The notes beneath the pieces were generated by a model. It did not search any database. It was not told where the DNA came from and was given only the letters and a program-made list of their open reading frames with translations. The translations under genes and the position numbers were made by a program. Shown here one piece after another: positions 13,193-53,433 of a stretch of DNA of 64,000 nucleotides. The stretch's first letter is position 1, and the number at the start of each line of letters is the position of its first letter. The DNA is from Lentisphaera marina (GTDB lineage: Bacteria; Verrucomicrobiota; Lentisphaeria; Lentisphaerales; Lentisphaeraceae): positions 1,178,001 through 1,242,000 of the forward strand of contig NZ_JAQZZL010000002.1 of assembly GCF_028745505.1 (NCBI RefSeq), read 5' to 3'.

Positions 13193-13220
13193 GGTCGCAA
13201 GTCAAGATTGGCTTTTGACA
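13193..13220 (-). promoter_or_regulatory. ECF-type promoter (site 1)
   Basis: On the minus strand, TGTCAAA, 15 bases, GCGACC; the distal end is 36 bases before the ATG at 13157. One of 11 sites with identical spacing. Confidence 0.7.
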
Positions 13221-13251
13221 GCGAAGCTATTTTTTCTTTTGTAAAAAACTA

Positions 13252-14043
13252 TTAATTTGATGCTTTTTTGTGCTTAAAAAGCCACTTTAAAGAATCCTCT
13301 TCCCCATCACATTTATCACTGCTAAAGTTAGTGACCTGATTTTCTTTGATCTTCAAAAATGCATTGGGAACATTATGCCCCTGCCCCTTGTAGGTAGTGA
13401 ACTTCATAAGACCGCCAGATTTTTTGAAGTCTTCGAATAAATCTTTGCTTTTTACATAAGGACTTACGTTATCCTTCTCTCCATGAAAAGACCAAATTGG
13501 AAAATCACTTAAAAGTTCTGTATCAATAAAGGGCTCTGTATTTTTTAAGCCTGCACCAGCGATTGTAATGGCTGCAGCAAAGAAGTTATGATCTTCCATG
13601 AGAAAGCGAAAAGTTCCATGCCCACCCATTGAATAACCAATTAAATAAATTCGAGACCTATCAACGTTTTTTAAGGTTTTAATGATCTCCTTAAGTTTCT
13701 GAAGCTGGTCTTTATTCCACAAAGATTTAGATTGCGGACTCAGCAAATAAGTCGGGTATTGTTTTCTGATTTCATCTTTACTCAGGTACAAAATTGTTTT
13801 GTTCATCTGAGTTACATTGTCATTGCCTCGACCACCACCTCCGTGCAAATAAATAATCACGGGATATTGCTGACTATTCTTAAAGTTAAGGGGACGCAAT
13901 AACCTGTAAGGCATATTTTTATATGTTTTCGCCTCGTGCTTTTTGATCCATGGCCACTCAACTTTTTTATTCTTTTCTGCGCATAAATTCACCGACATAA
14001 ATACGGCTATACTTAGAAATAGTGTTTTCGCTATAAACTTCAT
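13252..14043 (-). CDS. Secreted alpha/beta-hydrolase (esterase, PHB-depolymerase-like)
   Basis: A 263-residue protein with a signal peptide (to about residue 22). It has the oxyanion-hole motif YLHGGGGRGND (65-75), the nucleophile elbow GYSMGG (Ser138), an acidic residue in HGEKDNVSPY and the catalytic His in GQGHNVP, the full triad of alpha/beta-hydrolases. Relatives include feruloyl and acetyl esterases and PHB-depolymerase-like proteins; removal of acyl groups from polysaccharide would suit the setting, but the substrate is unknown. Its start codon overlaps the stop of the ThuA-like gene by one base (TAATG), so the two are translationally coupled and share the promoter at 15009-15036. Confidence 0.85.
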   Translation of the reverse strand: MKFIAKTLFLSIAVFMSVNLCAEKNKKVEWPWIKKHEAKTYKNMPYRLLRPLNFKNSQQYPVIIYLHGGGGRGNDNVTQMNKTILYLSKDEIRKQYPTYLLSPQSKSLWNKDQLQKLKEIIKTLKNVDRSRIYLIGYSMGGHGTFRFLMEDHNFFAAAITIAGAGLKNTEPFIDTELLSDFPIWSFHGEKDNVSPYVKSKDLFEDFKKSGGLMKFTTYKGQGHNVPNAFLKIKENQVTNFSSDKCDGEEDSLKWLFKHKKASN

Positions 14044-14957
14044 TACTTACTCTTTTTATTATTTTTATATAAGTACTTAACTGAATCTTTTATTAGGTTT
14101 TGAAACTCTATTTGCTGCCATTCTGAGATATCGTGCCCAAGGCTCAAACCAATTAATTCAGATTTACCCTGAGGAACCTGCCACATAACCACCGCCTCAG
14201 ACTTTTGCTTGGGAACTGCTAGCTCAGCTTCAGTAAGCTTCTTACCCATTAAGCGTTTTCTAGCTATATCATTGGGATACGCAACCTGAGTGCCTATTAA
14301 GAGTGGCTTCACTGAATCCAAGATATAGAAATTATTATAGAGTTCAGCAATCTCTGCCGTTGTGTAGCCCGCTTTGGGAACACTAGTGGTGGACTCGTGA
14401 GCACAACACTTAGTGACTTTGATCGCTGCTTTGGCTCCATGTGAAGTGGAGGCCACCCCCGTAAAATCGCCCCAAACGGGAAAGACCTCATGAGGATTTT
14501 GCTTCTTCCAGTCTTCATAGACCTTGGCATCAGCCATTGCACCTGATTCTGAAACCTGGATAAATTTATCCCCCTTTTTAAGAGATCCCTTGTAGCTTGC
14601 CCAAAAACTGTGCATGGCACAATGGATGACTAGCGCTGGTACACCTTTATTTCTTGTCTGATCTATAATATTTGAAGCTGCATTTAAATTGAGTGTCTTC
14701 GCAAAACAAAAGTTGTAAACCACCACATCATAACCATCGCAAAGTTGTGGGTCTTCTAATCTTATTAATTGATCATCATGCGTCCCGCTTGAAACAGTAA
14801 GTTTCCACCCAGCTTCTTTGCCTAAGCTAACAAAAATTTCTTTTTGAGGCGTGTACTCATGACTTTTACCCGGCTCATGAGTGATATATAAAACCTTTTG
14901 GCCATAGGCCTGAATAAACGACATTGCTACTACTAATAATAAAGCTAAGTATTTCAT
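14043..14957 (-). CDS. Secreted ThuA-like domain protein
   Basis: A 304-residue protein; I place the start at 14957 because AGGAG lies eight bases upstream and a signal peptide (MKYLALLLVVAMSFIQAYG) follows at once. An in-frame ATG at 14981 would add eight residues. The body matches the ThuA-like class I glutamine-amidotransferase fold: KVLYITHEPGKSHEYTPQKEIF at the start, YDVVVYNFCFA and GVPALVIHCAMHSFWAS in the middle, and a SELIGLSLGHDISEWQ end resembling the ThuA GHD motif. ThuA-like proteins are linked to trehalose and other sugar utilisation and often occur with oxidoreductases or DUF proteins in PVC bacteria; their reaction is poorly defined. First gene of a two-gene operon with an esterase. 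Confidence 0.85.
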   Translation of the reverse strand: MKYLALLLVVAMSFIQAYGQKVLYITHEPGKSHEYTPQKEIFVSLGKEAGWKLTVSSGTHDDQLIRLEDPQLCDGYDVVVYNFCFAKTLNLNAASNIIDQTRNKGVPALVIHCAMHSFWASYKGSLKKGDKFIQVSESGAMADAKVYEDWKKQNPHEVFPVWGDFTGVASTSHGAKAAIKVTKCCAHESTTSVPKAGYTTAEIAELYNNFYILDSVKPLLIGTQVAYPNDIARKRLMGKKLTEAELAVPKQKSEAVVMWQVPQGKSELIGLSLGHDISEWQQIEFQNLIKDSVKYLYKNNKKSK

Positions 14958-15008
14958 TTTTAATTCTCCTGTGAAAAGCATTTGGTAAATCTTAAAAAGT
15001 TATTTAAC

Positions 15009-15036
15009 AGTCGTAAATTCTGGATTTTTTTTGACA
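15009..15036 (-). promoter_or_regulatory. ECF-type promoter (site 2)
   Basis: Minus strand TGTCAAA-N15-ACGACT, 52 bases before the ThuA start at 14957. It lies between the ThuA operon and the divergent ECF sigma gene but faces only the former. Confidence 0.7.
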
Positions 15037-15139
15037 GCATAGGAAGATATTTTTTTTTTGAATACTATCATTTATGATATGAACTGCTGATTTTAGTCTT
15101 TTTAATACAGCTTAATTTTAATCAGGAATAAACTACAAT

Positions 15140-15724: not shown

Positions 15725-15734
15725 GAGAGGTAAC

Positions 15735-17675: not shown

Positions 17676-17745
17676 CTCAACTGCAGCCCCATTTGACTTA
17701 CTGAATATAAGAAAAAATCTTTTTTAAATTTTTTTATAAAAAGCA

Positions 17746-17772
17746 GTCAAATATCTAAAGTACCCATCGACT
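17746..17772 (+). promoter_or_regulatory. ECF-type promoter (site 3)
   Basis: GTCAAA-N15-TCGACT, ending 33 bases before the prepilin ATG at 17805. Confidence 0.75.
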
Positions 17773-17804: not shown

Positions 17805-18557
17805 ATGACAAAAAAACATTTTAGTCTTATTGAATTATTAGTCGTTATTGCAGTTATTGGTATTCTCTTCAGCCTTTTGGCGCCGGCCTTAAGCTCAGCG
17901 CGTGAATCTGCAAAAACAGCCACATGTAAAAGCACACTCAAATCACTTCATACAGCTTCGTTGATGTACGCAGATGATAATAATGACGTCGCCATCTTTA
18001 AAGCCCGCCAGCCTGGCTATGATAATTATTCTCCGGGGTGGTCTGACTACTCCCGATTGGCCCAATACCTAATGGATACCGGTTCAGAACCCGATGGATA
18101 TAGATACTACAATGAAAAATTTCTTTGTCCTAAAGCAGACTATGCTCGATCACAAGAGACTAATTTCGTGGAGGGTCGTCCCTATGAATTACGTTTTTCA
18201 TACGGTATGAATACAAGTAATCAGGTCATTAATAAGGCCAGTCAATTTGCTGGTGTAAAATTCACTCAACTAAATGACCCTGCCAACAAAATCCTATTTA
18301 GTGACTCCATTTCCGAGGCGATTATCCAAAACAACGCTGAATATGGCATGTACCTCGGAGGTAATTACGAAAACCCCGCCAATAACTGGAATAGACAGGT
18401 TGCCTATCGACATAAAGAGCAAGCTAATACAGTTTTTTACGATGGCCACATCGGGCCAGTCAATCACCTTCAGCTCACTTCGAATGCCACAGATTATTGG
18501 ACTCTCAGTGGCTATGTCCATATATCTAAGAACGGTACAAAGACAATCGTTCCCTGA
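17805..18557 (+). CDS. Prepilin-type protein, H-X9-DG family (paralogue 1)
   Basis: A 250-residue protein. The ATG at 17805 has GGAG ten bases upstream and places [22 protein letters not shown] right after a short basic leader, as in type IV prepilins and pseudopilins. The residue before the cleavage-site Phe is His, not the canonical Gly. The C-terminal part carries an exact H-X9-DG motif (HKEQ...YDG), the signature of TIGR04294/DUF1559-like proteins. It is clearly paralogous to the prepilin at 20390: both contain [23 protein letters not shown] and similar lengths. An IS1380-family element now separates them. It has its own ECF-type promoter. Function inferred: surface or pseudopilus component, possibly for polysaccharide binding. 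Confidence 0.88.
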   Translation: MTKKHFSLIELLVVIAVIGILFSLLAPALSSARESAKTATCKSTLKSLHTASLMYADDNNDVAIFKARQPGYDNYSPGWSDYSRLAQYLMDTGSEPDGYRYYNEKFLCPKADYARSQETNFVEGRPYELRFSYGMNTSNQVINKASQFAGVKFTQLNDPANKILFSDSISEAIIQNNAEYGMYLGGNYENPANNWNRQVAYRHKEQANTVFYDGHIGPVNHLQLTSNATDYWTLSGYVHISKNGTKTIVP

Positions 18558-18842: not shown

Positions 18843-20162
18843 TTAAAGGCTAAATGATATTTTTTGATACAGCTTAAACCAAGGGCTATGTCGACCAAAC
18901 TTGAGAGTTTCATCTCCTGCGTGCTTTACGTGTTTACAAGCGGTTAAAATCAAGTCACGTATCACGCACCGTAGGCGGCGTCGTTGGGCTTTGATTTTAA
19001 TTGGAGCCAAAGATTTATTATGGATAAGGTGATTACCAATGACTCTGAGCACATTAAAAGCGAGCATAGCGCAGTGCAAAAAGAATTGATTCGCTTTAAA
19101 TTTCCCTGAGGGTAAACGCTCTACATTCATATCGCTCTTCAATTCGCTATGGAACTGCTCACTGGTTCCATGATCGTGATAAAGTTCGATCACATCCTCG
19201 GCTTCTAAAGGTAAATTCGTCCAATAGGTCTCCACTTCGATTTCTGGCATCAAAAGTCGATTGCCATCTTGATCTTCGAGTCGTTCCGTAACTTTAAAAA
19301 TAACAGGAACCACTTTATGTTCTTCATTGTTTCCAGGATGTTTGTGATGGAGTTCACCGACAAAGACACTCTTACCATCTCGAGATTTAAGCTGTCGCCC
19401 TAAACGCCGTGCGTTGGATAGCCACTGTTCTTTAGATTCCTTTCTAAGGTTCCGTTTAATCAGAAAATATTGATCATCAGGAAGGTGTCCGAAATTAACC
19501 TCAGCATCGTGAGCGGAATCTAAACGAAGTAGTACGGGGTGCTTAAGCTTTAATTTTTTGATCATAGTAAAGCTGTCATCTAAGAACTCTGGCATCCCTT
19601 TTTGTGCATGCTGTGAACCTGGACGCAGCTCATTATTTAGCATAAAGCCCTCAGTTCCAAGGTAGGCAAACATGGGAGAAAATCCGTCATGATTTTTATA
19701 TGTCCAACTCACATTTTCTTTATGGCTACCGGAGTTATCCATGGGTGATACATCCATATCGAGTGGAATAAAATTCATCCCCCCTTTTGATATATTACCT
19801 ATACACTGTTTTTTGAGCAGGTTTGTATTCGCTGATTTTAAATGCACTTCATGCTCAGAAGACATGATTTCTAGTCGTTGACGCAAACGTTCCTCGGATG
19901 GAACTTTGTTTAATCCAAGTGATTTCATAAAGACTTCGTTTTCACGAAACTGACTAATATCTGTGAAGCGTTCACGCCCCTGAATCAGTAACCCCACCTG
20001 TGATTTGAAAATATCTAGATCTTGAAAGATATGATTGGCCTTGTGATCTGTATTGAACTCATCGTCAATTTCACTTTGTTGAAGGACTTGGCCACCTAAA
20101 AATATTCCGCCAATACTGTGAAGGGAATCATTGCCTGTGTCGAGTTTAAATGCTTTATTCAT
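18843..20162 (-). CDS. IS1380-family transposase
   Basis: A 439-residue DDE transposase. It contains the family-typical opening (GGIFLGGQVLQQSEIDDEF), an LDMDVSPMDNSG segment with the first catalytic Asp, VLLRLDSAHDAEVNF with a second Asp, and a YHDHGTSEQFHSELKSDMNVERLPSGKFKANQFF block with the catalytic Glu region near the C-terminus. The length is normal and no frameshift is seen. A 14-bp inverted repeat immediately upstream overlaps the weak ribosome binding site, which probably limits expression from outside transcripts. Confidence 0.9.
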   Translation of the reverse strand: MNKAFKLDTGNDSLHSIGGIFLGGQVLQQSEIDDEFNTDHKANHIFQDLDIFKSQVGLLIQGRERFTDISQFRENEVFMKSLGLNKVPSEERLRQRLEIMSSEHEVHLKSANTNLLKKQCIGNISKGGMNFIPLDMDVSPMDNSGSHKENVSWTYKNHDGFSPMFAYLGTEGFMLNNELRPGSQHAQKGMPEFLDDSFTMIKKLKLKHPVLLRLDSAHDAEVNFGHLPDDQYFLIKRNLRKESKEQWLSNARRLGRQLKSRDGKSVFVGELHHKHPGNNEEHKVVPVIFKVTERLEDQDGNRLLMPEIEVETYWTNLPLEAEDVIELYHDHGTSEQFHSELKSDMNVERLPSGKFKANQFFLHCAMLAFNVLRVIGNHLIHNKSLAPIKIKAQRRRLRCVIRDLILTACKHVKHAGDETLKFGRHSPWFKLYQKISFSL

Positions 20163-20328: not shown

Positions 20329-20355
20329 GTCAAATTTATAGAATGCTCATCGACT
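20329..20355 (+). promoter_or_regulatory. ECF-type promoter (site 4)
   Basis: GTCAAA-N15-TCGACT, ending 35 bases before the second prepilin ATG at 20390; 58 bases downstream of the IS1380 target duplication. Confidence 0.75.
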
Positions 20356-20389: not shown

Positions 20390-21169
20390 ATGAAAAATAA
20401 TTCTAATAAATTCACTTTAATTGAACTACTCGTCGTTATTGCAATTATAGGCATTCTCGTAAGTCTGCTTGCCCCAAGTCTAAAAGGCGCTCGGGAATCT
20501 GCGAAGTCCGCAGCATGTAAAAACACCTTAAAGTCACTCTACACGGCATCACTTCTCTACGCAGATGATAACGAGGATTGGGCTCTATTCAGAGCTGATA
20601 TCGGCGTTACAGATTCACAACCCTGGGCTGCATGGGGCAACTATGGTCAATACCTCATGGATATCGGTTCTAATGACAACCAGAGATGGTTTCGCTTCTA
20701 TAGTGAGAAATTCATCTGCGCCAATGCCGAATATGCACGCACAGAAGCTAATACCTCGGCAGAGGGCCGTCCCTATGACATTCGCTATAGCTACGGCATG
20801 AATACCAGCGGACAAGTGGTGGAAAAAAATTACCCTTTTGGGGGAATAAAATTCAACCAGGTCGATTCTCCATCAGACAAAATATTTATGAGTGATTCCC
20901 TATCAGAATCGATTCTTGAATCCAAAGCAAGATTTGGTCATTACATCGGAGGTAATTATGAAAGCCCTGCAAATAGCTGGAATCGACAAGTAGCCTACCG
21001 CCACAAAGATCAAACTAAGGCAAATATAACCTATTTTGATGGCCATATCGAAACCAATGATTACCTGCAAATAACCGTTGAAGGCGACTCAAATAACTTC
21101 GTTGATAAATGGAAGCTCCCCGGCTACACTTACATCGAACCCGATGGCACTGTCAACACAATTGAATAA
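20390..21169 (+). CDS. Prepilin-type protein, H-Xn-DG family (paralogue 2)
   Basis: A 259-residue protein. I use the ATG at 20390, nine bases after GGAGA, rather than the one at 20381 that directly abuts it. After the leader MKNNSNK comes [24 protein letters not shown], the prepilin helix; Lys replaces Gly before the cleavage point. The end carries H-X11-DG (HKDQ...FDG), a slightly longer version of the H-X9-DG signature. It is a close relative of the 17805 gene, with the same promoter type, so the pair probably arose by duplication before the IS insertion. It is last before a repeat-bearing gap and the convergent sulfatase pseudogene. Confidence 0.88.
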
Positions 21170-21441: not shown

Positions 21442-22961
21442 TCAGCGCTGGGGCTTCTGGATGAGTCGCTTAAGGTCTCTTTCCAGTTCAGCCACTAATT
21501 CGGGCTTCTGCTGAGCCAAGTTATTGGTCTCGCCCGGATCTTTGGAAAGATCATAGAGTTGAGGCTCAGGACTCAATCCTCCCTCGATCTTTTTATTTTC
21601 CTCGATCCAAGGCTTGGATTCTTGAGCGGGAGGAATGTATTTGAGCTGCCCTTTCCTAAGAGAAAAATGACCACAGGATTCACGAAGCATCAAGTCACGA
21701 CCATTGGATTTTTTACCTAAAAAAGTATCTAGTAAATCCAGGCTATCCAGAGCTTCGCCCTGCTCTAATTGATAATCCAGCAAAGACGCCAAAGAAGCGT
21801 ATAAATCTAACTGATTCACCAGGGCATCACTTTTACCGGGCTTGATACGATTTGTCCAGGAAAGGATAAAAGGCACACGAGTTCCCGCCTCGAAAGTACT
21901 GTACTTACCTCCACGTAGTTTCCCGGCGGGCTTGTGTTTACCCAGCATTTCATAGCTCTTATCAAAATAACCATCACTCACTACGGGGCCGTTATCACTT
22001 GAAAAGACGATGAGTGTATTGTCTTTCAAAGCACGTTTTTCCAAGTGATCTATGAGCTGACCAGTGATATAATCCATTTGCTTAATGGCATCGCCGCGCG
22101 GACCTAATTTTGAAGAACCCTGAAAACGAATATCGGCCATATAGGGCACGTGAATATCGTGAAAGGAAAAATAGATAAAAAAGGGCTCATCTCGGTTTTG
22201 ATCAATAAAAGTCCTAGCCTTGTGCAGCATCTGATAGGGAATTGTTTCATCTTTCCAACGCGCTGAATGACCACCCGTCATGTAGCCGATGCGACTCACG
22301 CCATTGACAATGTTTTCCGGTGTTGTTCATCAGCGGTGTATTTAACCAAGTTAGGGAAATCCAAGGCCGTTTTATCTTGCCCAATCTTTGCTCCATAACT
22401 AACCTCGATGGGATCCATGGGGTCGAGATTTAGAACTTTATGACCTTCAACTAGCACGCAGGGCACGCGATCACCTGTCGCCGGAATCAAAAAACTGTAA
22501 TCAAAACCTATCTCGAGTGGTCCCGGTGCAATTTTACCATTCCAGTCGAGATCGCCATTGCCCAAACCCAAATGCCACTTACCAATCACCGCAGTTTTAT
22601 AAGATTGACTTTGCAGCATTTTTGCCAAGTTGGTTTTATCAGGAGAGATCAACAAGGGCGCATCACCCGGCAAGATTTCTGCTTTACCTCGAAAGGCATA
22701 ATTACCCGTTAATAAAGAATAACGCGATGGCGTACATGTCGCCGAGGATGAATGACCATCAGTAAAAACCAAGCACTGATCAGCCAACTTATCGATAGCT
22801 GGAGTTTTGATCTCTGTAGCTCCGTAGCAACTCAAATCGCCATAGCCCAAATCATCGACATAGATCACCACAATATTTGGTTTTTCTTTTGCAGAGAGTT
22901 GCACTGTTAATACTAATAAAAGTGTGAGTAAAACCCATATGCTTTTCATGTAAAGCGTCAT
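21442..22961 (-). pseudogene. Type I sulfatase interrupted by a frameshift
   Basis: Two overlapping frames together encode one sulfatase of about 500 residues. The first (22961 to 22296) has a signal peptide, the metal motif YVDDLGYGD and the FGly motif CTPSR (Cys76) in SSATCTPSRYSLLTGN, then ends at TADEQHRKTLSMA-stop. The second (21442-22299 and readable a little upstream) resumes with VSRIGYMTGGHSARWKDE. Adding one C in the CACCGG stretch (complement of about 22317-22321) restores QHPENIVNGVSRIGYMTGG in one frame. It is a single-base deletion or a sequencing error; I see no canonical slippery heptamer for programmed shifting. It lies 23 bases behind the GH28 gene in the same operon. Confidence 0.85.
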
Positions 22962-24375: not shown

Positions 24376-24403
24376 AGTCGAGAACCAATGAGCTTTTTTG
24401 ACA
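24376..24403 (-). promoter_or_regulatory. ECF-type promoter (site 5)
   Basis: Minus strand TGTCAAA-N15-TCGACT, 42 bases before the GH28 start at 24334. It is back to back with site 6, which drives the TRAP operon. Confidence 0.75.
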
Positions 24404-24491: not shown

Positions 24492-24518
24492 GTCAAAAAA
24501 CAATTTTAGCTTTCGACC
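24492..24518 (+). promoter_or_regulatory. ECF-type promoter (site 6)
   Basis: Plus strand GTCAAA-N15-TCGACC, ending 40 bases before the dctP start at 24558; divergent partner of site 5. Confidence 0.75.
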
Positions 24519-24557: not shown

Positions 24558-25598
24558 ATGAAAAAAAATCAATCCTATTTCGTCGTGGGTCTCTTACTTG
24601 GTGCCCTACTCGCCAGTAGCGCTTTTGCCATGTTCCTGCGCATGCAAAAACAAGACGCCCTAAATGACGCCTTAGCCGGTAAGGGTAATAGCGCAAAAAT
24701 CACCCTCAAACTAGGTCATAGCCTGGATGTGAACCATCCAGTGCATCAAGCTATGGAACACATGAAAAAACGCCTGGCTGAATTATCTGGTGGCAGCGTG
24801 GATGTGGACATCTACCCCAGTAGTGTTTTGGGTAATGAAACCCAATGCCTCGAACAGCTCCAAAACGGCTCCCTTGCGATGACCAAAACCGCGGCAGCAG
24901 CGATTGAGAACTTCATCCCCGAGATGCAGGTCTTTAGCTTGCCTTATGTCTTTAAGAGTCGTGATCATTACTGGAATGTACTCAATAGCGAAGTCGGCCA
25001 GGAGCTACTTCAAAAGGGTGAATCCAAGTACTTGCGCGGGCTCTGTTATTACGATGGTGGCAGTCGAAATTTTTACACCAAAGAAAAAGCTATTCAAAAA
25101 CCCGATGATTTAAAGGGCGTCAAAATCCGCGTGCAAAATAATGCCACTGCCATTGCCATGGTGAAAGCCATGGGTGGCTCCCCCACCCCCATCGCCTGGG
25201 GCGAACTCTACTCGGCCTTAGCTCAGGGAACAGTAGACGGCGCCGAAAACAATTTACCCAGCTTTACTACCAATAAGCACTACGAGATCTGTAAACACTT
25301 ATCCTTGGACGGTCATAGTCGCGTTCCGGACATTCTCTTAATGAGTAGTAAAGTTTGGCAAAAGCTGCCCCCGCATGTTCAAGAATGGGTTCAGCAAGCC
25401 GCCGATGAATCCCGTGAGTTCCAGAAAGAACTGTGGGCGCAAAAAACTTTAGAGGCCCTGGAAGAAGCTAAGAAACATGGCGTAACCATCTACGACGTCG
25501 ATGTCCAGGCCTTTGCCGCCAAAGTCGCCCCCATGCTCGAGCAGGTCGAGAACCCAAAAGTTAAAGACTTACTCCACAGAATTAATGAGGTGGACTAA
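24558..25598 (+). CDS. dctP: TRAP transporter solute-binding protein (DctP type)
   Basis: A 346-residue periplasmic binding protein with an N-terminal membrane segment (YFVVGLLLGALLASSAFAMF) that may act as signal or anchor. Typical DctP features are LKLGHSLDVNHPVHQAMEHMKKRL, a GGSRNFY segment and DLKGVKIRVQNNATAIAMVKAMGGSPTPIAWGELYSALAQGTVDGAENN; the Arg in KIRVQ normally pairs with the substrate carboxylate. It captures an organic acid for the DctQM channel. With uxaC downstream and GH28 divergent, glucuronate or galacturonate is the best guess. The gene stops one base before dctQ starts. Confidence 0.93.
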   Translation: MKKNQSYFVVGLLLGALLASSAFAMFLRMQKQDALNDALAGKGNSAKITLKLGHSLDVNHPVHQAMEHMKKRLAELSGGSVDVDIYPSSVLGNETQCLEQLQNGSLAMTKTAAAAIENFIPEMQVFSLPYVFKSRDHYWNVLNSEVGQELLQKGESKYLRGLCYYDGGSRNFYTKEKAIQKPDDLKGVKIRVQNNATAIAMVKAMGGSPTPIAWGELYSALAQGTVDGAENNLPSFTTNKHYEICKHLSLDGHSRVPDILLMSSKVWQKLPPHVQEWVQQAADESREFQKELWAQKTLEALEEAKKHGVTIYDVDVQAFAAKVAPMLEQVENPKVKDLLHRINEVD

Positions 25599-26123
25599 AT
25601 GATTAAGCTAATTATCAAAGGAAAATCTTTCCTAGTTAAGATCCTCGAGCTCATGCTTATCTTCTCCGTGGGAGCCTTAGTCCTAGACGTGGTTTGGGGC
25701 GTCTTCACCCGCTATGTCATGGGCGAGCAAGCCAAGTGGACCGAGGAACTGGCACGTTTTTTACTGGTTTGGGTCTCCCTACTGGGTGGCGCTTTAGCCT
25801 TTGGCACCAAAGGTCACTTGGGCGTAGATTATTTTGTCGGAAAGCTCCATTGCGATGCCCGCAAATTAATGACTCTGATTTCCCACTTCATCGTACTCTT
25901 ATTTTCTGTCTCCATCTTCCTTTACGGCGGATCTTACATCGTAGCCGAATCCTTAAAACTCGAGCAAATGACTCCGGCTCTGGGTTGGAAAATGGGTTAC
26001 GTATATTTGGCCCTGCCGATCTCGGGCTTCTTCATGCTTTTATTCACACTGGAAAACCTCTACGAGACCATCATCACTCCTGCAGGTCAACTACACGAAG
26101 CCGATGGCGAGGAGCTCAACTAA
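25599..26123 (+). CDS. dctQ: TRAP transporter small permease (DctQ type)
   Basis: A 174-residue inner-membrane protein with four predicted helices and the DctQ-typical FTRYVMGEQAKWTEELARFLLVWVSLLGGALAFGTKGHLGVDYFV block in the first half. It pairs with the large subunit to form the Na+-driven carrier. It begins directly after the dctP stop and its stop codon overlaps the dctM start (TAATG), showing tight translational coupling. Confidence 0.93.
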   Translation: MIKLIIKGKSFLVKILELMLIFSVGALVLDVVWGVFTRYVMGEQAKWTEELARFLLVWVSLLGGALAFGTKGHLGVDYFVGKLHCDARKLMTLISHFIVLLFSVSIFLYGGSYIVAESLKLEQMTPALGWKMGYVYLALPISGFFMLLFTLENLYETIITPAGQLHEADGEELN

Positions 26124-27418
26124 TGGAAATGACCGCTTTTATTTTAGTCACGGTTTTTGCCCTGCTCTTGATCATGAATGTGCCCATTGCGGTTTCCATT
26201 GCCCTGGCAAGTTTTGCCGCTATCCTGGTTGAGGGCTCCGATCCCTCTATCGTATTAGCTGGCAAGATGGTCAGCGGCGTGAACTCCTTTGCCCTACTCG
26301 CGATCCCCTTCTTTGTCTTTTCCGGTCACCTCATGGGTAAAGGAGGTATGGCACGGCGACTCATTGATTTTGCCGGTACGCTAGTGGGCTTCCTCCCCGG
26401 TGGTTTAGCTTACGTCAATACCTTGACCTGTATGCTCTTTGGCTCCATATCGGGCTCAGCTTCTGCCGCAGTTTCATCGGTGGGTGGCTTTATGATTCCA
26501 GAGATGAATCGCAAGGGCTACAATCGCGAATTTAACGTAGCGGTGACCACCACGGCAGCCACAACCGGCCTGATGATCCCCCCCAGCAATATTATGATCG
26601 TCTATTCCGTTGCGGCGGGTTCGGTTTCCATTGCCGCCATGTTTATGGCGGGAATCCTCCCCGGTGTTTTAACCGGCCTCTTTATCATGCTCGTCTGTGG
26701 CTACTTCGCTCTAAAAAAGAAATACAAAGCCGAACCACGCTCATCCATTAAAGAAATCTTCGTGGCTTTTAAGCACGCTTTCTTGAGTTTGTTTTTAATC
26801 GTTATAGTCATTGGCGGTATTCTTAAAGGCATCTTCACAGCGACCGAGGCCGCCGCTTTTGCCGTGGTCTATGCCTTTATTTTATCAGTTGTCATTTACC
26901 GCGAGATCAAGCTCAGTCAGATGCCGCAAATCATGCTGGAAACGGGTGTGACCACCGCCATTGTCATGCTACTCATTGGTGCCAGCACGGGTATGAGCTG
27001 GATCATGACCATGGCCAATATCCCCCAAACGGTCAGTGCCGCGCTCATCGCTCTTTCAGATAATCCCATTGTCATTTTGCTGACCATTAATTTACTGCTG
27101 CTGATTGTGGGCACTTTTATGGATATGACTCCCGCGGTATTGATCTTCACCCCGATCTTTCTTCCCGTAGTCACGGCTCTAGGCATGCACGAAGTTCAGT
27201 TCGGCATCATGCTCATCGTCAATTTGTGTATTGGACTTTGTACGCCGCCAGTGGGCACCTGTCTTTTCATTGGTTGCGGAGTTGGCAAAACCTCAATTGC
27301 CAAAGTCTCGCCCATCATGATCCCCTTCTTTATTGCGATGATCGCAGCTTTGCTTTGCGTCACCTACATCGACTCCATCACACTCTGGCTTCCACGCTTA
27401 CTCAACTTAGTTGATTAG
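26123..27418 (+). CDS. dctM: TRAP transporter large permease (DctM type)
   Basis: A 431-residue inner-membrane protein with about 12 helices. The correct start is the ATG at 26123, overlapping the dctQ stop; the frame is open further upstream inside dctQ but that part is not protein-like. DctM hallmarks include PFFVFSGHLMGKGGMARRLIDFAGTLVGFLPGGLAYVNTLTCMLFGSISGSASAAVSSVGG, TTAATTGLMIPPSNIMIVYS and CTPPVGTCLFIG. It forms the transport channel for the acid delivered by DctP. Located in an operon with uxaC (35 bases downstream). Confidence 0.94.
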   Translation: MEMTAFILVTVFALLLIMNVPIAVSIALASFAAILVEGSDPSIVLAGKMVSGVNSFALLAIPFFVFSGHLMGKGGMARRLIDFAGTLVGFLPGGLAYVNTLTCMLFGSISGSASAAVSSVGGFMIPEMNRKGYNREFNVAVTTTAATTGLMIPPSNIMIVYSVAAGSVSIAAMFMAGILPGVLTGLFIMLVCGYFALKKKYKAEPRSSIKEIFVAFKHAFLSLFLIVIVIGGILKGIFTATEAAAFAVVYAFILSVVIYREIKLSQMPQIMLETGVTTAIVMLLIGASTGMSWIMTMANIPQTVSAALIALSDNPIVILLTINLLLLIVGTFMDMTPAVLIFTPIFLPVVTALGMHEVQFGIMLIVNLCIGLCTPPVGTCLFIGCGVGKTSIAKVSPIMIPFFIAMIAALLCVTYIDSITLWLPRLLNLVD

Positions 27419-27453: not shown

Positions 27454-28863
27454 ATGAATTCATTTATTCACGATAACTTCTGTTTGGAGACAGAAGTCGC
27501 TCAAAATCTTTATCATAACTATGCGGCTAATCAGCCCATTATTGATTATCACTGCCACTTATCACCTCAGGAAATTGCCGAGGATAAACGCTGGGATAAT
27601 ATCACCCAGGTTTGGCTCTATGGCGATCACTACAAATGGCGTGCCATGCGTAGTAACGGCGTTTCGGAAAGACTCTGTACGGGCGACGCCTCGGATCGCG
27701 AAAAATTCAGTGCCTGGACTGAAACCGTGCCAGCAACCCTGCGCAACCCACTTTATCACTGGACGCATTTGGAGCTCAAGAAATACTTTGGCTATGAAAA
27801 ACTGCTTTCTTCCAAAACGGAAGATGAGGTCTGGAATCTAAGTTTAGAACGCATGTCCGAAACAAGCTTCTCGACTCGCGGACTCATGAAAAGCAGCGGA
27901 GTTAAACTAGTCTGTACAACTGATGACCCCATCGATTCCCTGGAGCATCACGTCGCCATTAAAAACGACCCCACTTTTGACATTCAAGTACTTCCAACTT
28001 GGCGACCAGACAAGGGCATGGCAGTTGAAAGTGCAAGCGAATTTAATCAATGGCTCGACGCTTTAGCGGAGCGTTCCAATACCGACATCACTAACTTCGA
28101 TTCCTACATGACCGCCCTCAATAAGCAGCATGATTTTTTCCATCAGGTAGGCTGTCGCTTATCTGATCACGGCATCGAAACGGCTTACGCGCTGGATTAC
28201 ACTGATCAGGAAATCACAATAATTTTCGATGAAATCCGCAGTGGCAAAGAACTCACTGAGCTCAAAATCCTAAAATTTAAATCAGCTATGCTCTATCACT
28301 TTGGGGTCATGGATGCCGCAAAGGGCTGGGCTCAGCAGTATCACCTTGGCGCTATTCGCAATAATAATTCTCGCCTCTTCAAAAGCCTTGGGCCAGATAC
28401 CGGCTTTGACTCCATCGGCGACTTTGATTTGGCTCGTCCTTTAGCTAAACTACTAGATCGCCTGGACTCCAGTAATCAGCTCGCCAAAACAATTCTCTAT
28501 AACCTCAACCCACGGGATAATGAAGTTCTAGCCACAATGATCGGCAACTTCCAGGACGGTAGTGTAGCAGGCAAAATGCAACTGGGATCCGGTTGGTGGT
28601 TCCTGGATCAAATGGAGGGTATGACTCGTCAGATTGAATCACTCTCTCAGTTGGGCCTACTCTCCCGCTTTGTGGGTATGCTCACCGATTCGCGCTCCTT
28701 CCTGAGTTATACGCGCCACGATTACTTCCGTCGTATTCTATGCAATATACTTGGCAACGATGTCAAAAAAGGCTTGCTACCAAACGATATCGCCCTCCTG
28801 GGAAATATGGTCCATGACATCTCCTACAACAACGCCTCCAATTACTTCGGCTTCGAACTCTAA
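27454..28863 (+). CDS. uxaC: Glucuronate/galacturonate isomerase
   Basis: A 469-residue cytosolic enzyme of the amidohydrolase-related UxaC family, which converts D-glucuronate to D-fructuronate and D-galacturonate to D-tagaturonate. The N-terminus has IIDYHCHLSPQEIAEDKRWDNITQVWLYGDHYKWRAMR, with the His-x-His metal motif, and the family-typical LVCTTDDPIDSLEHH and LGAIRNNN segments; the length matches the usual 465-470. It is the last gene of the TRAP operon, just before a strong terminator. The following enzymes of the pathway (UxaB/UxuB, UxaA/UxuA, KdgK, Eda) are not in this window. Confidence 0.96.
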   Translation: MNSFIHDNFCLETEVAQNLYHNYAANQPIIDYHCHLSPQEIAEDKRWDNITQVWLYGDHYKWRAMRSNGVSERLCTGDASDREKFSAWTETVPATLRNPLYHWTHLELKKYFGYEKLLSSKTEDEVWNLSLERMSETSFSTRGLMKSSGVKLVCTTDDPIDSLEHHVAIKNDPTFDIQVLPTWRPDKGMAVESASEFNQWLDALAERSNTDITNFDSYMTALNKQHDFFHQVGCRLSDHGIETAYALDYTDQEITIIFDEIRSGKELTELKILKFKSAMLYHFGVMDAAKGWAQQYHLGAIRNNNSRLFKSLGPDTGFDSIGDFDLARPLAKLLDRLDSSNQLAKTILYNLNPRDNEVLATMIGNFQDGSVAGKMQLGSGWWFLDQMEGMTRQIESLSQLGLLSRFVGMLTDSRSFLSYTRHDYFRRILCNILGNDVKKGLLPNDIALLGNMVHDISYNNASNYFGFEL

Positions 28864-32466: not shown

Positions 32467-32493
32467 AGTCGCTGAATGCGCAATTTTTTTGAC
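32467..32493 (-). promoter_or_regulatory. ECF-type promoter (site 7)
   Basis: Minus strand GTCAAA-N15-GCGACT, 46 bases before the sulfatase start at 32421. The spacer contains AATGCGCAATT, similar to the words at 53462-53503. The divergent cytochrome gene has no such site. Confidence 0.72.
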
Positions 32494-32590: not shown

Positions 32591-34009
32591 ATGAAATATT
32601 TCATCATAGTTCTAGTAATCTTGGGGAGTTTACAAATCTCAGGAAAAGATAAAAAACAAAAAAACACGCGAGCATCGATTCAGGAAGAATACAGTGGTGA
32701 ACGCGATGCTAAAACGATCCGTATGGCCATGGCCTCCAAAGCCTTTTCCTGGCTTAGTGGTTCACCCGCTGATAATGAAAAATTATCAGTTGGTAAATCT
32801 GCTCAATTCTTTGGCTTTGTTGCTTTGCGTTATACTAGTGGAAGAGCGGCAAAAAGAGGTAGTTTAGGAAGAGCTTTTGAAGCCATTGCTACAGAAAAAC
32901 AAAAAACCTTAATGGTCGATGCAGTTGAGCAAGAAGCAGAAGTCATGAAATTGTGGTGGGATTGTCGCAGCAAAATTCTTCGGCATCTGGAAAATCATCT
33001 TTACACAGGCCAGGTTTTCAACACAAAGGAATTAAATGCTTTAGCCAAAGAGTTTGGCTACCTCAATGGAAAAGCGGGACTCATCGAGGCACGGGCTTTT
33101 GCTAAATTGGAAGATAGCCTTAGTGAAAGTCATTGGGCAAAAATGAAAAACTTTAGAAAAAACCCAGATCTTGCAAATTCCCAAGATAATAATAAAGGCA
33201 AAAAAAGTTCTAATTTAAGTCGAGAACAAGCCGCCCAATATGAAGATCTCTTTGCAAAATGCTTTACTTGGTTGACGGGCAGCATGAAGGACAATCAAGT
33301 AATCCCCCTTGGTCAACCTGCGCAGTTTTTTGGTTTTGTTTCTATTCGTCACAAGAGTGGGCATGGAGCAAGTCGAGGTCAAATTTCAAAAAGTTTTAGT
33401 AAGCTACTTAACCATGAGCAAAGTCAACTATTGGATAAGTCAGTTGCCGAATTACAGCCATGGATAGAAAAGTTTATTAAGCAGCGAAACGCGCTACTCC
33501 TGGAGATGGATAAATTACGCAATAGCCCAGGAAGTTTTGATGCCTCAGTTTATAAAAAAATATCTGAAGAGCTGGGACTAATTGAAGTTAAATGTGGTCT
33601 TATCGAAGCATCTTGTTATCATCAAATCCGCAAGATGATGAGCGACAATCAATTGGCTAAAATGATGGATATTCGGTCAAATTATATTGTGGACCAAGAG
33701 CAAATGGAAAAACTCAATACTGTTGAACGAGGTGCCAAACTTTATAATCTGTGTTCAGCTTGTCACAATAAAACTCTCGCACCAAGTCTAACAGGGGTTT
33801 TTGATCGAAAAATTGCCTCTTTGAAAAATTATGAATATTCATCGGCAATACAGGCTTATGCTAAGGGCGCATCGTGGGATGAAGTCAAGCTAGATCATTT
33901 CTTGAAAGCACCAACGCAGGTTGTGCCAGGTACGAAAATGGCTTTTCAGGGGATTCTGAATAAGGATGACCGCACAGCACTTATTGAATATCTTAAAAAA
34001 CTTAAATAA
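32591..34009 (+). CDS. Secreted protein with duplicated Spy-like helical units and a C-terminal cytochrome c domain
   Basis: A 472-residue exported protein (signal to about residue 18) with three parts. Two homologous units of about 145 residues (46-188 and 220-363) share F-WL-GS, QFFGFV-xRx-SG, GLIEA and a terminal AKM; their long charged helices with EKQK/HEQSQ and spaced Arg/Lys/Leu recall Spy/CpxP-like LTxxQ proteins, a weak match. Residues 380-472 are a class I cytochrome c: CSACH haem site (Cys388, Cys391, His392) and a Met ligand in PGTKMAF (Met450). It is followed after 13 bases by a sulfatase, so the two form an operon. Possible roles are redox sensing or electron transfer in the periplasm; the combination is unfamiliar to me. 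Confidence 0.8.
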   Translation: MKYFIIVLVILGSLQISGKDKKQKNTRASIQEEYSGERDAKTIRMAMASKAFSWLSGSPADNEKLSVGKSAQFFGFVALRYTSGRAAKRGSLGRAFEAIATEKQKTLMVDAVEQEAEVMKLWWDCRSKILRHLENHLYTGQVFNTKELNALAKEFGYLNGKAGLIEARAFAKLEDSLSESHWAKMKNFRKNPDLANSQDNNKGKKSSNLSREQAAQYEDLFAKCFTWLTGSMKDNQVIPLGQPAQFFGFVSIRHKSGHGASRGQISKSFSKLLNHEQSQLLDKSVAELQPWIEKFIKQRNALLLEMDKLRNSPGSFDASVYKKISEELGLIEVKCGLIEASCYHQIRKMMSDNQLAKMMDIRSNYIVDQEQMEKLNTVERGAKLYNLCSACHNKTLAPSLTGVFDRKIASLKNYEYSSAIQAYAKGASWDEVKLDHFLKAPTQVVPGTKMAFQGILNKDDRTALIEYLKKLK

Positions 34010-34022
34010 AGGAATTTAATCA

Positions 34023-35465
34023 ATGAATAAGATAACCTTATTGCTAACGGCATTCTGTTCCATGACTCTCGCGGCCGTAGAGAAGCCAAATATCATTTTC
34101 ATTATCTCGGATGACCAGGCGTGGGATGGACTTTCCATAGCCATGCATCCAAATATGGACAAGTCTAAGCACGCTTATATTCAAACTCCCAATTTAGCGA
34201 AACTAGCTAATGAAGGCATGCGTTTTTCTGCCGCCTATGCTCCATCACCCGTTTGTGCAGCCACTCGGATTAGTCTCCAAACAGGGAAATCGCCAGCTGC
34301 GCTACATTGGACTAAGGCCGCCAAGTCAGTAACTGAAAAAAATAATTATCCACTTATCCCTCCAGTAAATATCAGAGATATTCCTGAATCTGAAGTCACT
34401 ATAGGGGAGATCCTTCAATCTCAAAATTACCTGACGGCGCATTTTGGTAAGTGGCATATAAATGGAGGTGGGCCTGCAAAACATGGCTATGATGAGCATG
34501 ATGGCGATATTGGCAATGAGTATGCCGCTAATTATGCGGGGGATAATCCAGTTGATATTTTTGGCATGGTAAAGCGATCGATTAATTTTATGGAAAGAGC
34601 TCAGCGTGAGCAAAAGCCCTTTTATCTCCAACTATCATTTCATGCCTTGCATGCGCCCCAAAATGCCCTTCAATCGACTATCGAAAAATATAAAACCCTA
34701 GTTCCAAAGGGGAATGAAAAAGAAATCGGACGCGCTGCTCTTTCAGAAAATCTTGATTCTGGAATAGGTCTTCTCTTAACTTCTCTTGAAAGACTTAAGC
34801 TCACAAAAAACACCTACATAATCTATATGTCTGATAATGGTTCTGGAGGAAAAAAGGGGCCATTACGAGGAGGCAAAGGCGATGCTTGGGAAGGTGGTAT
34901 TCGTTCACCAATGATCGTTAAAGGGCCCCATATCAAAGCTGGGTCCTGGTGTCATCAAAGAGTAGTCGGGTACGATTGGTATCCAACTTTTTGTGATTGG
35001 GCTGGAATTAAAAAACTTCCAAAGCACATCGAAGGTGGCAAGCTTAATGATGTACTTACATCAAATAACAAGGGAAAAATCCACCGTACTCGTGAAGAAC
35101 TGGTTTTTCACTTCCCTCACTATCAAGGAGATACTCCTCATACAGCTTTATTTTGGGGAGATTATAAACTCATGAAGTTTTATGAAAGCGAAAGGCTGTT
35201 TCTTTTTAACATCAAAAAAGACATTTCAGAATCAAATGATCTATCATCAATTTTACCAGAAATGACAGATCAAATGCACCAAAGAATGATTAAATACCTT
35301 GATGAAGTGAATGCGCAATTACCTACTTCAAATCAAAACTACGACCCCAATAAACCATCTATATCTAGTAAAGGAAAAAAAGGGTCGAAAGGAAAAAAAG
35401 GGGGTAAAGGAAAAAACAAAGCAAGTAAAAATCATCCGATTAACGATGAAATTAGACTTAATTGA
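34023..35465 (+). CDS. Secreted type I sulfatase with Gly/Lys-rich tail
   Basis: A 480-residue exported enzyme (signal to about residue 18). FGly motif CAATR (Cys78-Arg82), a CxAxR variant, in PSPVCAATRISLQTGKSP; metal motif ISDDQAWDG; later YMSDNGSGGKKGPLRGGKGDAWEGGIRSPMIVKGP, typical of arylsulfatase A-like S1 members. The last 40 residues are low-complexity Ser/Gly/Lys (KGKKGSKGKKGGKGKNK), a basic tail like that of the 28940 sulfatase. It is the only sulfatase on the plus strand in the island, placed downstream of the cytochrome fusion, and converges on the GH1 gene with one base between the stops. Confidence 0.9.
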   Translation: MNKITLLLTAFCSMTLAAVEKPNIIFIISDDQAWDGLSIAMHPNMDKSKHAYIQTPNLAKLANEGMRFSAAYAPSPVCAATRISLQTGKSPAALHWTKAAKSVTEKNNYPLIPPVNIRDIPESEVTIGEILQSQNYLTAHFGKWHINGGGPAKHGYDEHDGDIGNEYAANYAGDNPVDIFGMVKRSINFMERAQREQKPFYLQLSFHALHAPQNALQSTIEKYKTLVPKGNEKEIGRAALSENLDSGIGLLLTSLERLKLTKNTYIIYMSDNGSGGKKGPLRGGKGDAWEGGIRSPMIVKGPHIKAGSWCHQRVVGYDWYPTFCDWAGIKKLPKHIEGGKLNDVLTSNNKGKIHRTREELVFHFPHYQGDTPHTALFWGDYKLMKFYESERLFLFNIKKDISESNDLSSILPEMTDQMHQRMIKYLDEVNAQLPTSNQNYDPNKPSISSKGKKGSKGKKGGKGKNKASKNHPINDEIRLN

Positions 35466-39741: not shown

Positions 39742-39769
39742 GCTCGCTGAAGATGTATCTTTTTTGACA
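39742..39769 (-). promoter_or_regulatory. ECF-type promoter (site 8)
   Basis: Minus strand TGTCAAA-N15-GCGAGC, 82 bases before the start at 39660. The -10 half is the weakest match (GAGC rather than GACT), but spacing is exact. Confidence 0.6.
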
Positions 39770-43811: not shown

Positions 43812-43839
43812 CGTCGATTAGCCTGGGGTATTTTTGACA
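43812..43839 (-). promoter_or_regulatory. ECF-type promoter (site 9)
   Basis: Minus strand TGTCAAA-N15-TCGACG, 39 bases before the beta-helix lipoprotein start at 43773, in a 224-base gap that holds no ORF. Confidence 0.72.
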
Positions 43840-47451: not shown

Positions 47452-47478
47452 GGTCGAAATGAACTCAGCTCATTTGAC
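47452..47478 (-). promoter_or_regulatory. ECF-type promoter (site 10)
   Basis: Minus strand GTCAAA-N15-TCGACC, 59 bases before the symporter start at 47393 and 68 bases from the left end of the IS3-family element. Confidence 0.72.
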
Positions 47479-47589
47479 TGATTAAGTAAATTTTTTTACT
47501 AATTGTTTAGTTTAAAGGACATGGTGCTTCGCATACGAGAAGGACTGTCTTGTCCTGATATAGGTTGTCATCTAAATCAGGAACAACCC

Positions 47590-47973
47590 ATGAAAGATAC
47601 AATAAGATATAGTGAATCATTTAAACAAAAAGTGGTAAACGAAATCTCCAAAGGTAAATTTATAAGCTGTGGAGAAGCTAGCCAAGCTTATGGGATATCA
47701 GGCTCTTGTACAGTAAGAGGCTGGGTCAAAAAGTATGGTAGAACAGACTTATTACCAAAGGTGATTAAAGTGGAATCAGAAAATGATATTGATGAAATTA
47801 AAGCTCTTAAAAAGCATATTGCTGAGTTAGAGAAAACAGTAACTGAACTAGCTATAAGTGATGTTATGAATAAAGCTTACTTTGATATAGCGTGTGATAA
47901 GTTCGGTGTGTCAGATAAAGTCGCATTCAAAAAAAAAGTCGATGCGAAGCTGTCTGGAGAGTCAGAGAAATGA
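47590..47973 (+). CDS. IS3-family OrfA (transposase HTH protein)
   Basis: A 127-residue protein when begun at the ATG at 47590 (AGGAA upstream); the frame is open to 47503, but that would cross the element end. It has the helix-turn-helix of the family (YSESFKQKVVNEISKGKFISCGEASQAYGISGSCTVRGWVKKYG) and a leucine-zipper-like helix (IDEIKALKKHIAELEKTVTELAISDVM). OrfA binds the inverted repeats. Its stop overlaps the start of orfB (ATGA). Confidence 0.88.
   Translation: MKDTIRYSESFKQKVVNEISKGKFISCGEASQAYGISGSCTVRGWVKKYGRTDLLPKVIKVESENDIDEIKALKKHIAELEKTVTELAISDVMNKAYFDIACDKFGVSDKVAFKKKVDAKLSGESEK
47929..47938 (+). promoter_or_regulatory. Likely programmed -1 frameshift site (A9G)
   Basis: Nine A residues and a G near the end of orfA. 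A -1 slip here enters the orfB frame, and the path from 47938 to the orfB start (KSRCEAVWRVREM) contains no stop, so an OrfAB fusion transposase can be made, as is known for IS3-family elements using A6G-type slippery runs. Confidence 0.65.
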
Positions 47974-48806
47974 ACAAATCTTTCACTGTTAAGCAACTCT
48001 GTGAGTATTTAAAAATGAGTCGGCAAAACTTCTATAAACATAGATCAATTAGCACTAAAAAAGAAGTGGATCAAAAGCTTATAGTCGAACTGATCAAAGA
48101 ACAACGCTGCATCCAGTCAGAGCTCGGAGTTCGAAAGCTACATCATATATTAGCGGATGACTTCAAAGAGAATTCTATAAAAGTAGGACGAGATCGCTTG
48201 TTCGATATAGCTCGTGAAGAGCGACTATTAATCAAAAGAAAGAAGAAGTACTGTCGCACAACCGATTCTAGGCATTGTTTTAAAGTTTATAGAAACCTCA
48301 TCAAAGATATGAATTTAACATCTCCTAACCAGGTTTGGGTATGCGATATCACCTATATTAGAGTAGTAAAAAGCTTTGTTTATTTAGCATTGATTACTGA
48401 TGCATACTCTAGAAAAATCATTGCTTATAATGTGGGAGAGAACTTAGAAGCTGTTGGATGTATCAAGGCGTTGAAAATGGTTTTAAAAGATCTACCTAAA
48501 GGTTCTCACCCGATCCATCACTCTGACAGGGGGTCGCAGTATTGTTGTTATGACTATGTCGATATTCTAAAAAAGAAAAACCTTCTGATTAGTATGACAG
48601 AAGAAAATCATTGTTATGAAAACTCAAAAGCTGAAAGGGTTAATGGGATCCTAAAATATGAGTACCATTTGAGAAATACATTCAATGATCTAAAGAGCGC
48701 AAAAACAGCTATTAAACAAGCTATCTATTTGTATAATAATTGCCGTCCACACATCGCTTTGGGTTACTCATTCCCAAGTACTGTTCACGACAGACAATGT
48801 GCATAA
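47970..48806 (+). CDS. IS3-family OrfB (DDE integrase-type transposase)
   Basis: A 278-residue catalytic protein with the IS3 retroviral-integrase core: VWVCDITYIRV (first Asp), HPIHHSDRGSQYCCYDYVDIL (second Asp) and ENSKAERVNGILKYEYH (catalytic Glu), plus the N-terminal IS3 HTH_21 region (LIVELIKEQRCIQSELGVRKLHHIL). No interruption is visible, so the element may be active. It starts at the ATGA overlap with orfA and can also be reached by frameshifting at 47929-47938. Confidence 0.92.
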   Translation: MNKSFTVKQLCEYLKMSRQNFYKHRSISTKKEVDQKLIVELIKEQRCIQSELGVRKLHHILADDFKENSIKVGRDRLFDIAREERLLIKRKKKYCRTTDSRHCFKVYRNLIKDMNLTSPNQVWVCDITYIRVVKSFVYLALITDAYSRKIIAYNVGENLEAVGCIKALKMVLKDLPKGSHPIHHSDRGSQYCCYDYVDILKKKNLLISMTEENHCYENSKAERVNGILKYEYHLRNTFNDLKSAKTAIKQAIYLYNNCRPHIALGYSFPSTVHDRQCA

Positions 48807-50305: not shown

Positions 50306-50323
50306 AGCTATCTCCTTTGTTAA

Positions 50324-53300: not shown

Positions 53301-53368
53301 AATTGACTACTTGCGAGTACAGGTAAAACTATTAATGTAAGTAAGACTTTTGGGGAACTAAATTTCAT
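50324..53368 (-). CDS. GH2-family glycosidase (beta-galactosidase/glucuronidase-like), secreted
   Basis: A 1014-residue exported protein (signal to about residue 21). The order is a jelly-roll sugar-binding domain (about 50-190, LMLNGLWEVGS to MIWDDVELFLHG), an Ig-like domain (about 195-300), a TIM barrel (about 310-600) and a C-terminal region of beta-sandwich and glutamine-amidotransferase-like character (from about 690). The acid/base is Glu421 in HPYNETYG and the nucleophile Glu483 in VDEFGG, matching GH2 retaining enzymes. The specific sugar (Gal, GlcA, Man) cannot be fixed. Operon with the 48905 sulfatase, driven by an ECF-type promoter. Confidence 0.85.
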   Translation of the reverse strand: MKFSSPKVLLTLIVLPVLASSQFKDQASKLNDSPGVKMISSTIDNRAQNLMLNGLWEVGSQGNYSAERIVPGIVNDPAKIDENSVWLKREVKLPSGNWTKATLNLKGARFNPKVYINGELVSSQKGGMAPTRHLLDHKDIKPGNSVKLEIELASLKDMSEENASYIPRADHWRSNVSSMIWDDVELFLHGNTVIERMIPFTNLQDDKVDFHIYAKSLSKNGTPNLVKAELLKGEQVICSGEVSYKSTSEKNIVSVPFNGKIKLWSPEEPNLYKLRVFLLDNEKVVDQREYNYGAKEFSMDESGYQFRLNGKPFKGRMVSVVWPRWVRNKEGYDLAWNEEWFKKNIVLRMKDLGANMLRFHLGNPPEKFIDMCDKYGLLVQYEWSFFHGMPASEESLVEQWTDWIDLGLEHPSVGLIHPYNETYGDQLKVAWSAIDKIITDYPPLVLEERDVIHVHKYWWSLFENVGIYYDSLDQFPRAIMVDEFGGNYLDANYDEGKYWTVKDTFRRFLGADHTKELRTEHHTLANVKIAEYWRRLGAAGYSPFCALGSHEDGSHWFEGDLKEGNPKPVWNELAVVYSPLAVSMNLWDQNFTPGQEIDLPLHWFNDTEKDQNLVAQITIKEGDFVILSKELRCSVGAFSDLEKSVRITMPKSKGSYRLQVSLKNTPKEVKTSVHSRWDFNVSEAVVPESVKSKVLAIPSYEKELIDFASKNKLKVVDPNQTDEFDVLLLSKESWAKIKEDKSVLLTKVKELVEQGESVLILNAGPLNLGQGYPKDGSLGNLQGGHKVDYAQIDEFELLDEVKVAFKEIAEPESHIHAHEEGKALWSYLRADQTWLWNGYKGGLIVPADSMDVIGQDREGFLKIWKTRGAEEEYLETSKTYKGFELEGFYAFSHEPGKDEEVKKTLRDKVAFIVEDAPALAGSVNPKAAIKTYDLTAELAQQKTNSSLSIRSLAIAGKGMVRTPVVKVERGQGKLIISQLLTAGRLADGHCSDGLYGVRRDPVAEQVVLNMLSEL

Positions 53369-53405
53369 TTTTAACTACTCTTTGTTATTCATTGTTTTCC
53401 TATGA

Positions 53406-53433
53406 AGTCGAAAAGAACTTATTATTTTTGACA
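53406..53433 (-). promoter_or_regulatory. ECF-type promoter (site 11)
   Basis: Minus strand TGTCAAA-N15-TCGACT, 38 bases before the GH2 start at 53368. Confidence 0.75.

Follow-up and report, generated by a model that had tools for sequence, protein, structure and literature searches.

The question raised by a 64-kb stretch of the Lentisphaera marina genome (64,000 nucleotides of contig NZ_JAQZZL010000002.1, positions 1,178,001 to 1,242,000; hereafter the window) is what reads a two-box sequence that recurs upstream of its sulfatase, glycoside hydrolase, carrier and prepilin-like genes. An original prediction, made from this DNA alone, held that eleven copies of GTCAAA, each followed at a fixed distance by CGA, are promoters of an extracytoplasmic function (ECF) sigma factor encoded within the same cluster. 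Searching the window with GTCAAA-N16-CGA recovered all 11 sites at the predicted positions and strands, compared to a mean of 0.52 matches in 100 dinucleotide shuffles (maximum 3, with 0 of 100 reaching 11). The spacer had been given as 15 bases, counted to the base before CGA, and is 16: N15 returned no match, and the remaining spacers between 10 and 23 returned 0-3 matches each in the window. GTCAAA is preceded by T in six sites and by A in five, giving [A/T]GTCAAA-N16-CGA, and CGA is followed by C in 10 of 11. With the base before GTCAAA numbered 0, 10 of 11 sites have T at 30 and 9 of 11 have A at 35; this A is a possible transcription start. In a weight matrix built on the 11 sites, their own scores of 27.5-32.7 bits are favored by the training on these same sites; the best further position in the window reached 9.0 bits, and seven positions scored at least 16 in the other 1.9 Mb of fetched DNA.

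Every site faces the leading gene of its operon, and the C of CGA lies 37-86 bases ahead of the start codon when start codons are re-examined (for the TRAP gene the start was taken as 24558, where the re-examination script chose a later one). The site upstream of the GH28 gene falls within the longest reading frame of its target, and an in-frame ATG with a Shine-Dalgarno-like site provides a signal-peptide start that places this promoter upstream as well. Two conserved boxes at fixed spacing stand upstream of, and point to, genes, as in ECF promoters. Some operons lack the motif: no site points at the cytochrome c and sulfatase genes at 32591-35465 in the window scan. Target genes were named by Pfam and NCBIfam (Table); the ThuA-like gene scored slightly under the Pfam cut-off. 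The combination of UxaC, GH28 and sulfatases suggests that the substrate of the cluster is a sulfated, probably uronate-containing polysaccharide.

The predicted sigma gene is indeed present within the cluster, where it matches both Sigma70_r2 and TIGR02937. Region 2 scored 43.1 bits with PF04542 (cut-off 24) and region 4 scored 19.6 bits with PF08281, under the cut-off of 25.7, with TIGR02937 covering residues 25-184; no region 3 was named, and the size and regions are those of ECF (group 4) sigma factors. Directly behind it lies a Ser/Thr kinase gene that the prediction did not mention. Its product has one hydrophobic helix from about residue 352, past the kinase domain, followed by a C-terminus of about 280 amino acids. 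The nearest further sigma-region-2 genes are about 49 and 75 kb away.

The 11 sites are very likely promoters read by this sigma factor and forming one local, kinase-activated regulon, the link from sigma factor to motif and the kinase step being inferred from sequence. RNA polymerase carrying the sigma factor would recognize [A/T]GTCAAA-N16-CGAC as -35 and -10 elements and would begin transcription about 9 bases after CGAC. The transmembrane kinase would activate the sigma factor, presumably by phosphorylation, when its extracytoplasmic part senses what is probably a breakdown product, and the 11 promoters would together govern uptake and breakdown of the putative polysaccharide. The predicted ECF regulon thus fits the geometry, direction and position of the sites, as well as the sister modules and orthologous loci described below, with the provisos that the regulon is local, that its spacer is 16, and that its motif is one of several cluster-specific variants.

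Table. Features of the window (positions in the window) and promoter codes of other clusters (contig and position in kb).
Feature	Position	Strand	Description
ECF sigma factor, 194 amino acids	15140..15724	+	Sigma70_r2 E 3.7e-11; TIGR02937 53.6 bits, cut-off 42.9
Hanks-type Ser/Thr kinase, 646 amino acids	15735..17675	+	Pkinase E 1.9e-38
Promoter site 1	13195..13219	-	Upstream of 188-amino-acid protein 12591-13157, signal-peptide-like start, no Pfam match
Promoter site 2	15011..15035	-	Upstream of ThuA-like gene (likely start 14957) and alpha/beta hydrolase 13252-14043
Promoter site 3	17746..17770	+	Upstream of prepilin-like gene 17805-18557
Promoter site 4	20329..20353	+	Upstream of prepilin-like gene 20390-21169
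Promoter site 5	24378..24402	-	Upstream of GH28 gene, likely start 24334
Promoter site 6	24492..24516	+	Upstream of TRAP transporter genes 24558-27418 and glucuronate isomerase UxaC 27454-28863
Promoter site 7	32469..32493	-	Upstream of two sulfatase genes, likely start 32421, to 28940
Promoter site 8	39744..39768	-	Upstream of sulfatase, sulfatase, GH1 (39660-35467)
Promoter site 9	43814..43838	-	Upstream of pectate-lyase-like protein (lipoprotein-like start) and sulfatase (43773-39791)
Promoter site 10	47454..47478	-	Upstream of MFS_2 carrier and sulfatase (47393-43998)
Promoter site 11	53408..53432	-	Upstream of GH2 and sulfatase (53368-48905)
Code K			TGTCAA...CGTAG
Code Ct			TGTCT...CGTA or CGCA
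Code Cc			TGTCC...CGAA
Code E			TGTTAGA...CGATT
Code H/I	C1:2280-2406k		TGTAAAGA...CCGTG; 11 sites over about 126 kb, parts such as 2340-2368k outside fetched DNA
Code J			TTTGTTAAG...GCGTAT and TTTGTCAGT...GCGTA
C2:102-114k code	C2:102-114k		TGTCAT...CGTAT; ascribed to sigma C2:117338
C2:807-820k code (L117, L118)	C2:807-820k		TGTATAGA...CGTTT; three sites around Ser/Thr kinase gene, no sigma gene seen close by

A genome scan, proposed with the original prediction, found an excess at the window operons and background elsewhere. GTCAAA-N16-CGA had 65 matches in the 5.3-Mb genome and its reversed control 63, whereas the stricter form with CGAC had 21 matches compared to 9 for the control, and 10 of the 21 lie inside the window cluster. 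The strict pattern gave 8, 13, 11 and 11 matches in four relatives (controls 9, 8, 16 and 33). The excess is therefore confined to the window, and the motif marks one local cluster rather than a genome-wide regulon. One further candidate locus, G001:C2:490-530k in a relative, was discarded, its two strict matches within 6 kb both being inside reading frames.

Sigma-kinase pairs are numerous in this genome (G000). Of 82 sigma-region-2 matches, 49 have a kinase match within 2.5 kb, and 47 of the 48 kinases extracted near sigma factors have a comparable hydrophobic helix; the mean pairwise identity of these kinases is 42% in the kinase domains and 18% in the C-terminal parts. The sequence T[RS]x[TS]L[LIM], preceding region 2 within the first 25 residues, was found in 43 of 49 kinase-near sigma factors versus 0 of 4 others extracted, and is a candidate docking or phosphorylation site. 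An apparent invariance of T8 and T11 was rejected as circular, the set having been picked by the motif, and 43/49 versus 0/4 is the fair count.

Several of the clusters around these pairs appear to use an equivalent switch with different promoter sequences, judging from regions extending about 20 kb to each side of the 49 kinase-near sigma genes (33 regions besides the window) and from nine other regions. The recurring architecture is TGT, then CG 22-24 bases after the first T, with letters that vary by cluster (Table); in variants D and F, CA or TTGT replaces CG. Many genes behind these sites encode sulfatases or prepilin-like proteins, and further ones encode secreted proteins and carriers. 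(The sulfatase count in the genome rests on 150 of 321 candidates scored.) In a search for pairs of words of 5 and 3 letters separated by a gap, counted in 1055 gene-upstream regions, the window cluster ranked highest (log10 p -24.0, with -8.5 as the strongest value in 12 permutations), and signals beyond the permutations came from several other regions as well. In a guided test with 40 permutations, the best of which scored -4.74, E, Ct, the window code, Cc, TGTAT-23-CGT and TGTTA-22-CGT passed, while K and the C2:102-114k code (-4.61) and TGTAA-24-CGT (-4.24) fell within the range of the best permutations. Statistical support for the sister codes is uneven. Permutations served as the control, the nine sigma-free regions chosen for this purpose not being clean: C1:2300-2340k and C2:807-820k gave codes, and a third gave the artefact B described below. 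Sigma C2:117338 is outside the 49, since its closest kinase is 6.7 kb off. An expectation-maximization search with hypergeometric p values was dropped as badly calibrated, random sets reaching -16.0, a value surpassed only by the window (-18.3) when sigma neighbourhoods and the nine control regions were scored.

Two strong patterns were rejected as codes. Pattern B (ACCCA-N19-ACG, C2:865-900k) marks the start of homologous coding regions and reflects repeated sulfatase N-termini; this sulfatase-rich region (L119, L120) holds five homologous genes whose reading frames open with a near-identical stretch. D2 (TGGGA-N17-GGA, C1:2230-2249k; L063, L064) is a repeated hairpin-like element located roughly 150-170 bases ahead of several genes, including three prepilin-like genes that are neighbours. 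Pattern G (TGACC-N16-CTG, C2:2204-2234k), three sites of which continue CTGGTATAA, was neither accepted nor rejected, and the significance of pattern D is overstated because near-identical tandem copies and palindromic pairs were included.

Four relatives were searched with sigma factors E, Ct and K, and two further loci turned out to be orthologous to Cc. For all four, the codes recur beside orthologous sigma factors (81-94% identical), and the spacers have diverged. The E ortholog has three sites in G002 (88% identical) and two in G005 (81%, on a 9.7-kb contig); the K ortholog of G002 (94%) has three, one of them flagged as lying in a mechanically called reading frame. Cc orthologs in G001 (88%, five sites) and G002 (87%, three sites) have TGTCC...CGAA at 8 of 8 sites outside genes, and the Ct ortholog of G002 (88%) has TGTCT at 6 of 7. 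At other spacers the ortholog loci had 0-1.1 matches on average and at most 3, and for this reason the smaller sets of sites rest on letter agreement beyond the pattern. The Ct and Cc sigma factors of L. marina are 60% identical and lie 11 kb apart (C1:1591-1626k, L046-L048), with promoters of their two related codes interleaved; in G002 their orthologs are on separate contigs, and in G001 the best Ct match is the Cc ortholog, at 60%. A sigma factor of G005 (contig C112) shares 69-71% identity with the Cc group but 63% with Ct; all six sites at its locus have TGTCC.

Sigma identity and code similarity were correlated among 11 paralogs (Mantel r 0.385, p 0.0038) and among 17 sigma factors when orthologs were included (r 0.623, p 0.0001), with codes written by hand from the sites, and with the assignment of F, J and K uncertain because two or three sigma genes lie close together. 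Among ten codes compared, that of K is most similar to the window code (8/11, compared to 5-7), and the K sigma factor is 44% identical to that of the window; the C2:2121k sigma factor is as close (44-46%). A broader arrangement, to which we give an even chance, would have about 45 ECF sigma-kinase channels operating in parallel and insulated from one another, every channel having a separate sensor and promoter sequence and acting in cis on a single polysaccharide cluster.

Several observations weigh against either the local regulon or its generalization. Only about 10 of the 49 kinase-paired modules showed a code, and 1 of 53 sigma genes has an upstream code site when eight codes are tested; no motif site points at the sigma-kinase operon of the window in the window scan. 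The window sigma factor has no ortholog above 50% identity in 38 relatives or in 287 sampled genomes of the phylum, and a scan of genome contigs gave one irrelevant 31% match; its own code consequently lacks a footprint elsewhere. Eight related loci, with sigma factors 39-50% identical, yielded a single motif match (G017) and no motif cluster, and the word search, which likewise overlooked the G002 sites of K, found no strong motif there. The K code had one variant site beside a looser relative in G001 (82%), one site in G004:C11 (58%), and none at five further loci with 54-66% identical sigma factors. The Ct ortholog of G002 mixes CGTA (3/7) with CGAA (4/7) and includes one TGTCC site, and three matches in G002 also turn up at one other spacer when the E pattern is used in its loose form. 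Finally, a XylR/AraC-type regulator (PBP-HTH_18) is encoded at the edge of the cluster, at 11347-12480.

This regulator, or another transcription factor, could in principle bind the motif, since XylR/AraC-type factors can bind two spaced boxes, and its gene adjoins the cluster. We nevertheless consider it unlikely that the motif is a transcription factor site. Homologs of the regulator (tblastn, E up to 1e-10) were found in three other fetched regions, none of them a code-bearing cluster, whereas sigma-kinase pairs occur in or near nearly all such clusters; moreover, the distance from the second box to the start codon suits a promoter, and code similarity rises with sigma similarity. The motif could also be an ECF promoter read by a sigma factor other than its neighbour, the genome offering 82 sigma-region-2 matches and, in a separate search, 58 matches to the window sigma factor (itself counted), and the sigma-motif link being a prediction. 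This is quite improbable given that the motif is confined to the surroundings of one sigma-kinase pair and that the sister codes, too, are local and reappear in other genomes next to the orthologous sigma factor. Chance or duplicated upstream DNA, which did account for the repeats B and D2, has a negligible probability here, as the shuffles never approached 11 sites and the spacers and flanks of the 11 sites are unlike each other.

Reading by the neighbouring sigma factor can be compared with known systems. Bacteroides polysaccharide loci have dedicated ECF sigma factors under ECF/anti-sigma control, whereas in the window a kinase gene comes after the sigma gene, and Pfam named no anti-sigma domain in either neighbour of the sigma factor (the kinase and the ThuA-like gene). 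In ECF43 (EcfP-PknT, EcfK-PknS), as in the window, an ECF sigma gene is paired with a Ser/Thr kinase gene, and an anti-sigma gene is not needed; the ECF43 cases considered here concern polymyxin resistance and type VI secretion (PMC8999054, PMC13147305). The acidic DAED motif of region 2.2 is missing from ECF43 sigma factors, and other kinase-associated groups keep it in this or a similar form (PMC8999054). Unlike ECF43 members, the window sigma factor, whose region 2.2 reads HHDAEEVSQ, keeps D49, E51 and E52, and thus an ECF43-style activation is not expected. Kinase control is also predicted for ECF59, ECF61, ECF62 and ECF217, with examples from Planctomycetes, groups for which the available part of PMC8999054 gives no promoter motif. 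The SigI/RsgI systems of cellulosome-forming Clostridia comprise several sigma paralogs per cell with their own promoter variants and membrane-bound polysaccharide sensors (PMC10575876). SigI differs in its C-terminal domain and works with an anti-sigma sensor, in place of an ECF sigma factor with a kinase; families of the SigI/RsgI type were not named for the window sigma factor or kinase by Pfam or among the NCBIfam matches listed (25 of 45 for the sigma factor). L. marina further differs in having 49 kinase-near sigma genes with targets clustered around them, including sulfatases and prepilin-like genes. SigI/RsgI is the closest system in working, and the kinase-paired ECF groups are closest in parts.

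We found no publication on the motif, or on promoter codes particular to single clusters in such bacteria, in the literature searched, which leaves out most subscription journals, and no matching motif in the available portions of PMC8103513, PMC6388578 and PMC4807772. The sites offer candidate target promoters for kinase-paired ECF sigma factors beyond ECF43, which await characterization according to PMC8999054, and they provide a testable rule of one sigma-kinase pair, one promoter code and one polysaccharide cluster. If this rule is true, the regulons and substrate clusters of sulfatase-rich bacteria would be delineated by their promoter codes, and promoter choice by ECF sigma factors could be studied in the naturally occurring collection of paralogs; about 45 insulated channels would possibly rank among the largest sets of mutually orthogonal sigma-promoter pairs in nature and could reveal the code of sigma-to-promoter recognition.

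Additional features of the window cluster include a sulfatase gene (21442-22961) that looks broken or frameshifted, being split into overlapping frames for the N-terminal (22296-22961) and C-terminal (21442-22299) parts. The two prepilin-like genes are separated by a DDE transposase gene (18843-20162), and two operons of the putative regulon by a probable insertion sequence (47503-48806), with HTH_Tnp_1 found in its first frame (47503-47973), the only one searched.

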